A program made the position numbers and the translations under genes. This document shows positions 52,045 to 57,960 of a stretch of 64,000 nt of DNA, piece by piece. Positions within the stretch are counted from its first letter, which is position 1. Every line of letters begins with the position of its first letter. Below the pieces are notes generated by a model. The model ran no database searches, was not told the origin of the DNA, and was given only the letters and a program-made list of their open reading frames with translations. The DNA lies in the NCBI GenBank assembly GCA_015698285.1, contig CP048685.1, forward strand, positions 310,001 to 374,000, read 5' to 3'. The stretch is from Candidatus Nitronauta litoralis. Its GTDB lineage: Bacteria > Nitrospinota > Nitrospinia > Nitrospinales > Nitrospinaceae.

Positions 52045-54195
52045 TTGAAAATCAAACCGTCCCTGATCATCACCGCTGTTTTTCTAATATACGGCTTCCT
52101 GCTGACACCACTAGGACACATTGACCTTCCCACAATCAAAGACCTCAATCCTGGATACTATTCCATCAGGACTATTGACCCGGGTGATGATTCCGGGTAC
52201 TACGCCTATGTCCGATCAACAGTAATCGATGGCGACCTCGATTTTTTCAACGAAAAATATTTCTGGCATTTTGATTCAGTGGTCGACACCGGTTACACAG
52301 CCAACTACTGGTATATTGGTGCCCCCATCCTGTGGGCCCCGTTTTTCCTGACAGGACACCTCATCACACTGGTTTACCAGTCGCTGGGAATCCCCTTCTC
52401 GCTGGACGGTTACTCGCTGCCTTACAAAGGCATGACCTTCATCGGCTCCGCCTTCCTTTCCCTTTCCGGTCTGCTGATTTGCTTTGCCTGTCTGCGTAAA
52501 CACTTTCATGAAAAAATTGCGCTGGGAACCACCTTACTGGTTTTCGCGGCAACCTGCCTGCCCTATTTCACTTTTATCAGAAACAGGATGAGCCACAGCG
52601 GTGATGTTTTTATCGCCTTTGCCTTCTTCTATTTTTTTCTAGCTTACCGGGAGAACCGCCGCCAACCGGCCTGGTTTTTTATTGCCTGGGGACTGCTGCT
52701 TGGCCTGCTCACCGACCTCCGATACATCAGCATTCTTTACGCAATTCTTCCGGTAGGGCAAATGCTGGTCTACGGTGCGAGACTCCCCAAAACATCCCGA
52801 ACTTCTTTATGGACAGGTCTGGTTTGGGGTATCGTCGGCTTCCTGATTGCCTTTTCTCCGCAAGCGGCTTTCTGGCTCCGTATCCACGGTTCATTTTCCT
52901 CTCTGAACCCCTATTCCATTATGGTCGAGCCAACAGTTGCCAGTGTCTTCCACTCCATTGGAGAATTGTTTTTCAACGGTACCCGCGGATTGTTGAAAAT
53001 GGAATTTATCTGGGTACTCGGCCTTTGTGGTCTTCCCCTGGTCTGGAAGCGCGATCGGACTCTGGCAATCATGCTATCCCTGGTTTTTATCGGATTTTGT
53101 GTGCCGCAAATCGTCATCATGGATCCCGCGACTTTTGGACAACGCTATCTATTACCGGCCCTGCCTGTGCTGGCCTGGGGATTGGCCCAACTCACAGAAA
53201 CTCTCAGCCGGCTCAAGCAGTGGCGACTGATTTTCACTGCTGGCATTGCAGGAAGTCTCTGGATTTATATTCTCATCCTGAATTACAAAGTGATTCTGCC
53301 CCACAACGACCCGGAGTTTTTGTGGCATGCCCTGCAAGGATTGCCAAACCTGATGAATCGCCCGGAATTTTTTCGTCCAACCACATTCCTGGATTTATGG
53401 GCTTCCGGTGAGCTCCGCTTGCGAACAGCACAGGACTGGTTTTTCCTCGTCGTGCTTCCCCTGCTGACAGTCGTCCTTTGTATATTCGCACTAGCGATTT
53501 CCTGGAAACCACTTCCCTCCTCCTCGCGAAACAGTCTGCGAAAAAACGTTGTCAGCTTTGGAGGTATTTTCTGTATCGTGCTCACCCTGTGGATTATCGC
53601 CAGGCACCCTGCTTTTCCCCGCCAGGAAACAGCAGAACGATACCGTACTGCCGCTATCAGCAAATGGTTTAAGGATCCGGCTCACACTGAAACAACGCAA
53701 AAACTCCTCAACAAATCAGAGAAACTCAATCCGCAGGAAGCCGAAACCTGGCGGATTCGGGGCGACCTGGCGTTCATGCAGGGCGACTGGCCGACTGCGG
53801 AACAGTTTTACCAACAGGCGATTCTGCGAGATAACAACACGCCCGCCCGGGTACAACTGGAGAGGGTCCGGTTAATCATGAGGAAAAAATCTGAGAACGA
53901 ACAGGATGTCACTATCTTGAACGAAGTCAGAAGAGGATACCAGTTGCTCGATTTTCAAAAACAACCCTTCCAGGCACTGGAAGTTTTTAAATCAGCTTTG
54001 CGGCTTAATCCCTCATCACCCTATTCCTCGGGACTCATCGCCCTGCTGCGCCAACACAGCCAGCAAAATATTCGGATGCGACAGGCAGGAAATCAATCGC
54101 AGGGCATCTCAGACATCTCCTGGATGCTGCTCGGCACAAGCCTGAACGAAGTCCGGCTCAACCTACCACTTTTCCAACAAAGAATTAAATTTTAG
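52045..54195 (+). CDS. Polytopic GT-C-type membrane glycosyltransferase-like protein with TPR tail
   Basis: About 11-12 membrane helices cover residues 1-530. The first periplasmic loop carries an acidic motif (DPGDDSGYYAYVRS), as in GT39/GT83 mannosyl- and arabinosyl-transferases that use lipid-linked sugars. The C-terminal 170 residues contain TPR-like units (e.g. AETWRIRGDLAFMQGDWPTA and QALEVFKSALRLN across 640-680). 716 residues. The start is TTG 52045; the nearest upstream ATG (52001) is in another frame. Substrate and acceptor are unknown. It is convergent with the CarH-like regulator. Confidence 0.75.
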   Translation: MKIKPSLIITAVFLIYGFLLTPLGHIDLPTIKDLNPGYYSIRTIDPGDDSGYYAYVRSTVIDGDLDFFNEKYFWHFDSVVDTGYTANYWYIGAPILWAPFFLTGHLITLVYQSLGIPFSLDGYSLPYKGMTFIGSAFLSLSGLLICFACLRKHFHEKIALGTTLLVFAATCLPYFTFIRNRMSHSGDVFIAFAFFYFFLAYRENRRQPAWFFIAWGLLLGLLTDLRYISILYAILPVGQMLVYGARLPKTSRTSLWTGLVWGIVGFLIAFSPQAAFWLRIHGSFSSLNPYSIMVEPTVASVFHSIGELFFNGTRGLLKMEFIWVLGLCGLPLVWKRDRTLAIMLSLVFIGFCVPQIVIMDPATFGQRYLLPALPVLAWGLAQLTETLSRLKQWRLIFTAGIAGSLWIYILILNYKVILPHNDPEFLWHALQGLPNLMNRPEFFRPTTFLDLWASGELRLRTAQDWFFLVVLPLLTVVLCIFALAISWKPLPSSSRNSLRKNVVSFGGIFCIVLTLWIIARHPAFPRQETAERYRTAAISKWFKDPAHTETTQKLLNKSEKLNPQEAETWRIRGDLAFMQGDWPTAEQFYQQAILRDNNTPARVQLERVRLIMRKKSENEQDVTILNEVRRGYQLLDFQKQPFQALEVFKSALRLNPSSPYSSGLIALLRQHSQQNIRMRQAGNQSQGISDISWMLLGTSLNEVRLNLPLFQQRIKF

Positions 54196-54222: not shown

Positions 54223-55176
54223 TCAGCCACTGAGGGTTCTGGAACTATTATTGAGCCAGAGAAAATAATCTTCTATCGAGGTGAATGCACTAACCCCTTC
54301 AGGAATTTTCTTTTCGGGAATGTTTCCGACACCCGCCCCGCCAAGAATAAGGTGCACCCTTTCAGGCAATTCGTTTCTTAATTCAAGAATGCATTTCAGG
54401 GCTTCTTTCACAGGGTAAGAAATAGAAATACTGATTCCCAACGCCTGCGAAGTTGACCGGTGCACGGCCGATACCGTATCTACTACCGGAGTGTCCTTCC
54501 CAAGAAAAACCACACGCCTACCGGCCAATGCTGTGGTCAGGGCACACATCTGGATGCCGACTCTGTGTTGCTCCCCAGGAAGTGTGGTGAGAACAAACGA
54601 TCCGCCTACATTTCGCTCATTGAGCTTGCGCCACTGGCCTCCCATAAAATCGCTTAACGCTTCAGACGCAAAATGCTCTTGTGAAACGGTCAGCTCACCA
54701 TCCTCCCACTGCTGGCCCACTTCTTTTAGAAAAGGAACTGCCAGTTCGCTTAAAAAAGGCAATGGACCCCGCAATCCCCATTCATGATAAAACTGGGCGG
54801 TCAGATAACCTTCATCATAGTGTCGGGATGCAGTGACCCACTCCAGAATCAGGGGCGTGTCTCGTAAAGTTGAAACGGGATGCTCTGTGTTCTCCAGGGA
54901 TGGATTAGCAGAGGTCGGGTTCAGCAGTTTCTCAAGCTCATCAAGAGAATTGTTGACCACCTTGCGCGTTCGGAATCCTTTGTCAATTGCCGAGGCCACC
55001 GCACGCAGTCGCTTGACCTCTTCATGTGGATAGCGCCGATGGCCGGAGGGCAAACGCAATACTTTAAGAGCGTCATAGCGTCTTTCCCAGACGCGGAGGG
55101 TGTGCTGACCAATTCCAGTGAGTTGCGCAAGCTGCCCGATGGTCAGTGTTTTATCTGGTTCGGTATCCTGGCTCAT
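54223..55176 (-). CDS. CarH/LitR-type B12-dependent photoreceptor regulator (MerR family)
   Basis: MerR-type DNA-binding domain at residues 9-75 (LTIGQLAQLTGIGQHTLRVW, RRYP), then a four-helix bundle and a cobalamin-binding Rossmann domain (about 190-310). The light-sensing signature is intact: W157-x9-E167-H168, the same spacing as the W/E/H set that caps adenosylcobalamin in Thermus CarH. The lower-ligand motif is GEQHRVG with H204 (ExHxxG), 36 residues after H168. Such proteins repress in the dark and release DNA in light, usually controlling carotenoid or photolyase genes. I chose ATG 55176 (317 residues), with AGGAG just upstream; the frame open to 55368 adds 64 Pro/Gly-rich residues. 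It lies downstream of the gene at 55387 on the same strand. Confidence 0.88.
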   Translation of the reverse strand: MSQDTEPDKTLTIGQLAQLTGIGQHTLRVWERRYDALKVLRLPSGHRRYPHEEVKRLRAVASAIDKGFRTRKVVNNSLDELEKLLNPTSANPSLENTEHPVSTLRDTPLILEWVTASRHYDEGYLTAQFYHEWGLRGPLPFLSELAVPFLKEVGQQWEDGELTVSQEHFASEALSDFMGGQWRKLNERNVGGSFVLTTLPGEQHRVGIQMCALTTALAGRRVVFLGKDTPVVDTVSAVHRSTSQALGISISISYPVKEALKCILELRNELPERVHLILGGAGVGNIPEKKIPEGVSAFTSIEDYFLWLNNSSRTLSG

Positions 55177-55386
55177 CCTCTCCTCTTCATGTTCTGCGAA
55201 CAACATTTTTGCCTCTCGCCGGTAAAAGAATAGCCTGTTTCCACAAACTTTCCAATGGAAGAAAAAAGGGAGGAGGACCCCACCCGGCCGGCTCCTTGAA
55301 CCCGGTGGAGTCCCTGGGGCTTCAGGGAAGGACTTCTCGAAACCCCGATGGTTCGGTTGCCCAAGCATCCAAACCCACCTCCCTGA

Positions 55387-56082
55387 TCAGTACCGTCCAA
55401 CGTTCTCACCCGGAACCGCTGCTATCGGCATGCCCTGCACATGCTTGAGAACCTGCAGTCCCATGGAAGTACGCTGGACGGTGAAGGCCATCCCACCCAG
55501 AAGCGTATTAAACGTATTGCCCACTTTGATCCCGTAACGCTGCAGCATTTTCTGTTCGCCCTGACTGAGTCCGATTGCTCCGGATGGGTTGTTTCCTGTC
55601 AGGTTGTTTGCGATCTTTTTCTGGGCATCCAGACTGAACACCCATTCGAAATCCAGATGGCGATGGTCATGCCCTGGGTGCGCTGCCCTCATTGATGATT
55701 TGATCACCTGATGGGTCGAACTCATGGGCAGATTCCATTGAGGGGCATCATCATGGCCCAGAGTCGGGCCTTCAATATGAAGGCCGGAGGACGTTCGGGT
55801 GACCTCAATCATTTGATCACCGACGCGGGTTTTAAAACGATTGCCTACCTGGATTCCATATTCCTTGAGAGTTTTCTGCTCAAAACCTGAAAGACCAACC
55901 GTTTCGTTTCCTTCATTCATACCGCGCTGGATCCTGTCGGCAACCTTCTGGTCAAAAGTCCAGCCGACCGGGATGCTGCGGTGATCGTGACCGGTTCCCT
56001 GGTGAGCCAGAGCATTTCCTGCATTGAGGAAAGAAGCGATTGCGAGAGCGCAGATGATTTTGGTGATCTTTCGGGTTGTCAT
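55387..56082 (-). CDS. Secreted protein with a duplicated GHDH-headed domain
   Basis: I do not recognise the family. After a signal peptide (cut near GNALA, about residue 26) the mature part consists of two tandem copies of one domain of about 75 residues, each introduced by GHDHR. Copy 1 has GWTFDQKVADRIQR, GLSGFEQKTLKEYGIQVGNR and VTRTSSGLHI. Copy 2 has EWVFSLDAQKKIANNL, GLSQGEQKMLQRYGIKVGNT and VQRTSMGLQV. The His/Asp headers could bind metal. ATG 56082 has AAGGAG eight bases upstream; the longer start at 56142 is not needed. Its promoter (56161-56216) carries two palindromes, and the CarH-like regulator lies 210 bases downstream. Confidence 0.8.
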   Translation of the reverse strand: MTTRKITKIICALAIASFLNAGNALAHQGTGHDHRSIPVGWTFDQKVADRIQRGMNEGNETVGLSGFEQKTLKEYGIQVGNRFKTRVGDQMIEVTRTSSGLHIEGPTLGHDDAPQWNLPMSSTHQVIKSSMRAAHPGHDHRHLDFEWVFSLDAQKKIANNLTGNNPSGAIGLSQGEQKMLQRYGIKVGNTFNTLLGGMAFTVQRTSMGLQVLKHVQGMPIAAVPGENVGRY

Positions 56083-56160
56083 GGCGTTTCTCCTTAAGTT
56101 TCGATTTTTCTTTTTATTTTTTAAAACTGGATGATTGAGCAATTCCAGAAATCAATTCGT

Positions 56161-56216
56161 TGTCTAGAATCTATATTAGACTATCTTCCAATTATGTCAA
56201 ACTAATTTTTTAGACA
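56161..56216 (-). promoter_or_regulatory. Sigma70-type promoter overlapped by two 34-bp-spaced palindromes
   Basis: On the minus strand a perfect -35 TTGACA (56200-56195) and a -10 TAATAT (56178-56173) are 16 bases apart. Two imperfect inverted repeats overlap them: TGTCTA (56161-56166) with TAGACTA (56177-56183), and TGTCAA (56195-56200) with TAGACA (56211-56216). Matching half sites are exactly 34 bases apart. The position fits an operator that blocks RNA polymerase. The CarH-like regulator encoded downstream is the natural candidate to bind here. The rest of the gap 56083-56490 is AT-rich with no gene seen. Confidence 0.65.
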
Positions 56217-56490: not shown

Positions 56491-57960
56491 ATGAAAGAAG
56501 ATTTAACCATCGAAGAAATCAAGGAGCTATGCGATGCCGATCCAGAAAATGTTGAATTGAAAGAAAAGCTCTTCTTGGAACTTTTCAACGGAGAAAGAGA
56601 TAAGGATGAATTAACTTCCTATCTAAAAAAAATACGTAACCTCTATGAATTAGATAAAAACAACACCACTATTAGAGAACTTTTTGCGATCGGATTGAGG
56701 CTTGCCCTGGAGGCTGAAGAACCTGAAGAACCAGAAAATCTATTAAATGAGATCCAAAGCCTCTATGAATTAGACGAGAAAAATATTTTTATTAGAACTC
56801 AACTCGCATTGGCATTAGCCAGTTATACTTTAGAAACAGACCTGGAATTAACCAAAGAGGTTGTTGAAAAAATAAAATCTCTTTATGAAAAAGATCAGGA
56901 AAATTCAACTATCAGGGAAGCATATGCGTATGGACTGGTGAATATCACCTGGGAAACAAATCAAGATGCAATATTATCCAATTCAAAAAAAATTGAGACA
57001 CTCTACAATAAAGAACCTGATAATCACACAATTAGAGAATACTTAGCCCAGGCTTTCGCAAATGGCTTTATAGATTTCAACCAGAATTCATCCTTAGTAT
57101 TTTTTGAAAAAATCCAGAATCTTTATGAAGTTGACCAAAATAATGTAGGAATAAGAAGAATTCTTGCAGATGTGATTTCCAAAGCAACGGTTTCATGCGA
57201 CAGCCAAAGTCAATTTATGCTAATTGAAAAATTACAATCCTTGTTCGAAGTAGACCCGGAAAATGATGAGATCAAAGAGTCTTTTTCAATTGCCCTTTAC
57301 AATGCTTCATTCGACTATAATGGTAAAGAGACCATTATCTTTATTGATAAAATTCAACGCCTGCATGAGAGCGCCCCAGACAATAACTCCATCAAAGAAT
57401 TGCTGGCTGGCTGCCTGTATAATGCCAGTGTATATGCTGACATAGAAACAGTGACAGAATTTATTTCCAGACTTCAACAGCTTTTCGATTCGGGACCGGA
57501 AAATTTCACCATTGGCGAATATTTAGCAAAAAGTCTCTACAATTTAAGCGTGGATGCAGACCTGGAATTAAAACAACAAATTTTAAGAAAAGTAGAAAAC
57601 CTCTATGAAAGGGATCTTGATGGTCAAATGGGTGGGATGGCGTTAGCAGGTTGTCTATATGAATTTACTCGAGCTTCTGGTTCACTAGATTTCCAAGAAC
57701 TTATAATACGTCTATTAAACCTTCATGAGACAGAACCAGAAGATGACCAAATCAGGGAGCTATTAGCGAAAAGCCTAGCCACCTACCTTTATTATATTTA
57801 TGGAGAGCAAAGGACAACATATCTTGAAAAACTTAAAGTATTAAAGAGGAATTGGCCTGACGATAGTTACTGGCAAGACATTACAAATTATTTTGCCAGC
57901 AAGGAAGATAAAAGCTGGAAGTTTCCCGCTGATTTTTTTCGTGGACAAATAAAAAACTAA
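56491..57960 (+). CDS. Protein of ten 40-residue helical tandem repeats
   Basis: I do not recognise a family. After about 46 residues the whole 489-residue chain is made of roughly ten repeats, each exactly 40 residues in the copies I counted. Each begins KIxxLYExDxxNxxIRExLA and continues xALxNaxxexd plus a variable amphipathic stretch. The pattern predicts a two- or three-helix unit, related in style to TPR or HEAT, forming a solenoid for protein binding. No signal peptide or enzyme domain is seen. The gene is strongly AT-rich compared with its surroundings and stands alone, which suggests acquisition. The start ATG 56491 lacks a strong ribosome site. Confidence 0.8.
   Translation: MKEDLTIEEIKELCDADPENVELKEKLFLELFNGERDKDELTSYLKKIRNLYELDKNNTTIRELFAIGLRLALEAEEPEEPENLLNEIQSLYELDEKNIFIRTQLALALASYTLETDLELTKEVVEKIKSLYEKDQENSTIREAYAYGLVNITWETNQDAILSNSKKIETLYNKEPDNHTIREYLAQAFANGFIDFNQNSSLVFFEKIQNLYEVDQNNVGIRRILADVISKATVSCDSQSQFMLIEKLQSLFEVDPENDEIKESFSIALYNASFDYNGKETIIFIDKIQRLHESAPDNNSIKELLAGCLYNASVYADIETVTEFISRLQQLFDSGPENFTIGEYLAKSLYNLSVDADLELKQQILRKVENLYERDLDGQMGGMALAGCLYEFTRASGSLDFQELIIRLLNLHETEPEDDQIRELLAKSLATYLYYIYGEQRTTYLEKLKVLKRNWPDDSYWQDITNYFASKEDKSWKFPADFFRGQIKN

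Follow-up and report, generated by a model that had tools for sequence, protein, structure and literature searches.

A CarH-type regulator gene and a putative inverted-repeat operator at a secreted-protein locus of Candidatus Nitronauta litoralis and related Nitrospinota

Organization of the locus

The window analysed here is a stretch of 64,000 nt from Candidatus Nitronauta litoralis (GenBank assembly GCA_015698285.1, CP048685.1, positions 310,001-374,000), whose 3.9 Mb genome is labelled G000 in the coordinates below. Two genes lie in the same orientation on its minus strand: the first encodes a secreted two-repeat protein of 231 aa (55387-56082), and the second a CarH/LitR-type regulator (54223-55176). 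They are separated by 210 nt, across which they are presumably co-transcribed, and the operon seems to consist of these two genes only. A transcription attenuator between them was considered and rejected, the hairpin z-scores being unconvincing (-0.49 in the window, -1.99 at a paralogous locus). Pfam found no LOV or PAS match in the neighbouring genes at 52045-54195 and 56491-57960. The latter, divergent from the operon, encodes 489 aa with about ten degenerate repeats of about 43 residues (SLYELD..N..IRE) and has no Pfam match.

The CarH-type regulator

The regulator ORF extends from 54223 to 55368 on the minus strand, and translation likely starts at the ATG at 55176, which follows GAGGAGAGG. 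Pfam analysis revealed a MerR helix-turn-helix domain (MerR_1, 2.7e-12), B12-binding_2 (5.4e-08) and B12-binding (4.5e-07), the last with 30.2 bits, slightly below the Pfam cut-off of 32.1. The best solved relative was CarH of T. thermophilus (phmmer 1.5e-24 to 1.9e-24). The W-x9-E-H cap and the ExHxxG cobalamin ligand, which a preliminary description of this DNA had reported, were borne out by alignment: GQQW-x9-EH and PGEQHRVG, with the His ligand, match T. thermophilus CarH (5c8d/3whp) residue for residue. The published signature of adenosylcobalamin (AdoCbl) photoreceptors, GxxW, EH, GxxH and GxxxP (PMC11796333), is complete in the protein (GQQW, EH, GEQH and GKDTP). It thus has the domains, cap, His ligand and GxxxP motif of the CarH proteins of T. 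thermophilus and B. megaterium. The top NCBIfam model was the CarH equivalog NF052513, with 107.6 bits against a cut-off of 400; we therefore call the protein CarH-type and not an equivalog.

A second CarH is encoded in the host genome at G000:C1:2268406-2269311; it is 49% identical to the window CarH and has the complete signature. A PduO-type adenosyltransferase is also encoded (5.7e-59), so that AdoCbl can be made from cobalamin; no CobA/BtuR-type adenosyltransferase was found in the genome. Elsewhere in the genome, L020:4930-5847 (G000:C1:2486839) encodes a third, distant B12-binding MerR protein (GDLW..EEH, LPDEQHELA) with a RudS gene next to it; the repeats upstream are TGTCAA/TTGACA, not TGTCTA, and this regulator and its repeats are perhaps a separate light regulon.

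The secreted protein

The coding sequence of the first gene begins with an ATG after AAGGAGAA and includes a signal peptide. The protein had no match in Pfam or NCBIfam, in line with the preliminary description of it as a secreted protein of unknown type. Two paralogues with 47-50% identity were found in the host genome. The protein is rich in histidine and consists of two repeats of about 85 residues each, with an HDH motif in both. Cleavage probably occurs between ALA and HQGTGHDH, leaving His as the mature N-terminus, and the product is probably located in the periplasm. In 27 of 31 family members a His directly follows the predicted AxA cleavage site, and the HDH motifs are conserved too; the N-terminal His and the paired HDH motifs suggest, as a guess from motif conservation, that the protein binds metal.

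Structure prediction of the full protein gave a poor model (pLDDT 52) with no fold match. The model of a single repeat reached a pLDDT of 74; Foldseek gave nothing below E 0.001, and VIA-align gave Z scores of up to 5.7, with RsmE chains (PUA-like, N-terminal domain) making up most of the top rows. The modelled fold of a single repeat may weakly resemble PUA-like domains.

Promoter and candidate operator

A sigma70 promoter was found upstream of the secreted gene on the same strand, as the preliminary description had claimed, with a TTGACA -35 box (56195-56200) and a TAATAT -10 box (56173-56178) spaced by 16 bp. It is overlapped by two palindromes, also described before, and on the minus strand positions 56216-56161 read TGTCTA AAAAATTAGT TTGACA TAATTGGAAGAT AGTCTA ATATAGATTC TAGACA. 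The distal inverted repeat, TGTCTA-N10-TTGACA (56195-56216), has the -35 box as its inner arm, and the proximal one, AGTCTA-N10-TAGACA (56161-56182), covers the -10 box; the remainder of the leader (56083-56160) leads to the start codon of the secreted gene. The palindromes start 34 bp apart and have one mismatch per arm pair, so that four half-sites of alternating orientation follow each other at steps of 16, 18 and 16 bp. TAGACA, TTGACA and their complements in this region are TnnACA half-sites overlapping a promoter, and the region is a candidate CarH operator.

A lone palindrome is not rare: with two mismatches, two were found in the window against 1.0 expected, and with one mismatch there were eight sites genome-wide against 14 for the reversed control. 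It is therefore the arrangement that carries weight, not one palindrome. With up to three mismatches, the four-half-site arrangement had a single match in the window and none in 100 shuffles of it.

Copies of the candidate operator in the host genome

Pattern searches of the genome for sites of the TGTCTA-N10-TAGACA type, a check proposed in the preliminary description, found palindrome pairs at exactly 34 bp at three loci: the window, G000:C1:1473352/1473386 and 2270216/2270250. Each of them precedes a paralogue of the secreted family. At 2270216/2270250 the secreted gene is followed by the second CarH gene and an NmrA-type dehydrogenase gene; at G000:C1:1473352 no CarH gene is adjacent. Two more single palindromes, at 2214849 and 2907287, are located on promoters with TTGACA-16-TATAAT/TAATAT geometry, and the -35 to -10 spacing is 16 bp at all five sites. 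The composite TTGACA-N13-GTMTA-NNAT had five matches in the genome, exactly these five loci, and one in the reversed control.

Among the three paired promoters the half-sites are identical at 23-24 of 24 positions, while the spacers are identical at 16-17 of 28 (57-61%). The spacer identity indicates that the three paralogous promoters share ancestry, and near-invariant half-sites between drifting spacers point to selection on the half-sites in addition.

Two sites found no support as general members of a regulon. One precedes a gene for a small membrane protein (L018), in front of which relatives have no operator even where CarH is present; the gene at the other (L019) was found in this genome alone among the phylum genomes. 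The latter gene (L019:7414-7767; G000:C1:2907413) encodes a secreted protein of 117 aa in which WY/NP motifs recur, and has the same type of operator upstream. The only FAD_binding_7 photolyase gene of the genome (L140, G000:C1:448570-449169) is located at none of the five sites.

Conservation in Nitrospinota

In a set of 77 Nitrospinota genomes, the secreted family was found in 27 and CarH (E ≤ 1e-20) in 32; CarH is present in 25 of the 27 genomes with the secreted family. In every one of the 25, one or more copies of the secreted gene are followed, at a distance of no more than about 1.3 kb, by a CarH gene in the same orientation. The remaining two genomes, G016 and G024, have a secreted homologue with neither CarH nor the operator, the operator scores (12 and 13 of 23) being at background level; these homologues are divergent, have few histidines and have lost the N-terminal His and HDH.

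Comparison of 30 regions upstream of secreted-family homologues found a composite promoter of the TTGACA-N12/13-TGTCTA type before 21 of them, 14 with TTGACA-N12-[TAC]GT[CA]TA and seven more with TTGACA-N13-TGTCTA, against none in 9000 Markov-shuffled controls. The distal arm TAKACA had been left out of the anchoring; across the 19 promoters that could be anchored, each of its fixed positions is conserved at 79-95%. Absence of the palindromes from relatives had been named beforehand as evidence against the preliminary description; they are conserved before most homologues in CarH-bearing relatives. These relatives keep the proximal palindrome over the -10 box together with TTGACA, and this is the widely conserved element. 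The exact 34-bp repeat is not shared: in the aligned sequences of relatives the outer TGTCTA of the distal palindrome varies in position, from -13 to -16 counted from TTGACA, and the repeat is therefore peculiar to this genome.

The link between presence and absence of operator and CarH is, taken alone, suggestive (Fisher p = 0.08, for strict matches in 30 related sequences with two CarH-less cases). A stronger point is that in two genomes, G023 and G055, the composite operator immediately precedes CarH itself, and G055 has no secreted gene; evidently, the operator travels with CarH. In G023 the CarH gene and a CbiX gene diverge from a promoter region (L112:7297-7472) whose TnnACA half-sites cover both directions.

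In six Nitrospinota CarH proteins, which form one clade (99% support), Tyr replaces the cobalt-ligating His (PGE-x-Y) with W-x9-EH intact; their genes are L038, L045, L031, L076, L081 and L127 in genomes G046, G045, G031, G055, G053 and G059, respectively. In the CarH of G065 (L034) the same His is replaced by Gln, again with W-x9-EH intact. Several promoters of the Tyr clade keep TGTCTA sites, so that the CarH proteins of Nitrospinota do not all sense light or B12 alike. The clade is a naturally occurring set in which to ask whether light sensing disappeared and the operator was retained.

Across the phylum, genes beside CarH encode, among others, an Epimerase+DUF1731 protein (11 copies), CbiX, DUF4149, a lipocalin, an NmrA SDR, a peroxiredoxin-like protein and RudS. 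The RudS gene adjoins CarH in G056 and G057, and in the host genome it adjoins the distant third CarH-like gene. RudS, lipocalin, DUF1731 epimerase and peroxiredoxin fit a response to photo-stress, a role that the secreted protein may share. No carotenoid genes were seen in the examined neighbourhoods, in agreement with the preliminary description, which had not placed them among the targets.

Comparison with known systems

Characterised CarH operators consist of 11-bp direct repeats, nnnnTnnACAn, with TnnACA as half-site, and a -35 box inside an operator repeat is typical for CarH (PMC9304148). The half-sites TAGACA, TATACA and TTGACA fit TnnACA, and the -35 box of the window promoter lies inside the operator. 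However, the operators of T. thermophilus and B. megaterium have three to four tandem 11-bp direct repeats, whereas the window has inverted repeats (TGTCTA-N10-TAGACA), and the target at the window is a secreted protein. In the CarH/CarA operons of Myxococcales, carH is part of the operon it controls, operator design is plastic and repression occurs in the dark (PMC9304148). The window carH would likewise be inside the operon it controls, with a similarly plastic operator, but the myxococcal operons are carotenogenic.

The class II LitR proteins PplR1 and PmlR2 of Pseudomonas are associated with TGTACA-N12-TGTACA over a TTGACT-N16-TATGAT promoter (PMC9758184); PmlR2 is light-blind itself and is inhibited by a LOV protein. 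The window resembles this system in having two spaced TGTnnA/TnnACA half-sites over a promoter, and SDR-type genes occur in the regulon. It differs in spacing (N10, not N12) and in the AdoCbl photoreceptor signature of its regulator. With a LOV partner like that of Pseudomonas in mind, we examined the PAS histidine kinase adjoining the paralogous CarH, which lacks the LOV cysteine (GKTPRILQG). RudS (TudS-DUF1722) has been reported in light-responsive, LitR-controlled operons (PMC11417400); it adjoins some Nitrospinota CarH genes but is absent from the window's own operon.

None of the papers searched links Nitrospinota to CarH, to LitR or to a photoreceptor based on B12. What appears to be new here is CarH in Nitrospinota and the orientation and spacing of the operator; the half-site and its overlap with the promoter were already known.

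Proposed regulation and alternatives

We propose, in line with the light-controlled unit suggested in the preliminary description, that the locus is an autoregulated CarH operon, repressed in the dark and induced by light through an inverted-repeat operator over its promoter, and put the probability of this reading at about three in four. In the dark, AdoCbl-loaded CarH (54223-55176), its paralogue (2268406-2269311) or both would occupy the TGTnnA-N10-TnnACA inverted repeats and, lying over the -10 and -35 boxes, block RNA polymerase. Light would break the Co-C bond and release CarH from the DNA, upon which the secreted protein and CarH itself would be produced. The sequence itself shows the photoreceptor signature and the geometry of the operator, which recurs at paralogous promoters and accompanies CarH across the phylum; the binding of CarH, the sign of regulation (repression in the dark) and light as the signal are inferred. 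Against a light operon are an operator layout unlike the 11-bp direct repeats, the Tyr clade, the low NF052513 score and a photolyase gene outside the operator sites, as well as two of the five genomic sites, which drive a gene whose operator is unconserved (L018) and a unique gene (L019).

CarH could also bind the operator and read cobalamin status or redox instead of light, with AdoCbl as an ordinary co-repressor. The six Tyr proteins and the Gln protein, whose promoters are retained although the ligand His is gone, argue for this, as does the CbiX chelatase gene in several operons; but the window protein and most others keep the full photoreceptor signature, and RudS, linked to light-responsive operons in the literature, is found among the neighbours, and we regard it as unlikely. 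That a different transcription factor owns the TGTCTA-N10-TAGACA sites, with CarH a mere neighbour, is less probable still. In its favour, the layout of the sites differs from that of known CarH operators, and the copy at G000:C1:1473352 has no CarH beside it. Set against this, operator and CarH are present or absent together across genomes, the operator precedes CarH itself in G023 and G055, and the half-sites match TnnACA.

Common ancestry of the three paralogous promoters, seen in their spacers, and a lone loose palindrome no commoner than in controls would also be expected if the palindromes had arisen by chance in an AT-rich promoter and persisted only because the duplicated genes share descent. 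Since the composite is also found before unrelated genes and in different genera, against none in 9000 controls, and the half-sites stay almost invariant while the spacers drift, a chance origin is largely refuted and hardly credible.

More tentative than the proposal for this locus, and in our judgement somewhat short of an even chance, is the idea that Nitrospinota in general have a CarH regulon induced by light, with an inverted-repeat operator of its own and a new secreted, probably metal-binding family as its conserved first product.

Implications

Among the known nitrite oxidisers of the marine water column, Nitrospinota are the most abundant (PMC10839748), and it is debated whether light affects marine nitrifiers directly or only via competition (PMC5865239). 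The conserved CarH operon links this question to a particular gene, to a DNA site and to a target. The CarH family gains an operator geometry and an uncharacterised secreted family whose promoter follows the photoreceptor. If true, a general CarH regulon would be the photo-stress answer of this lineage, and would bear on how sensitive marine nitrite oxidation is to light.
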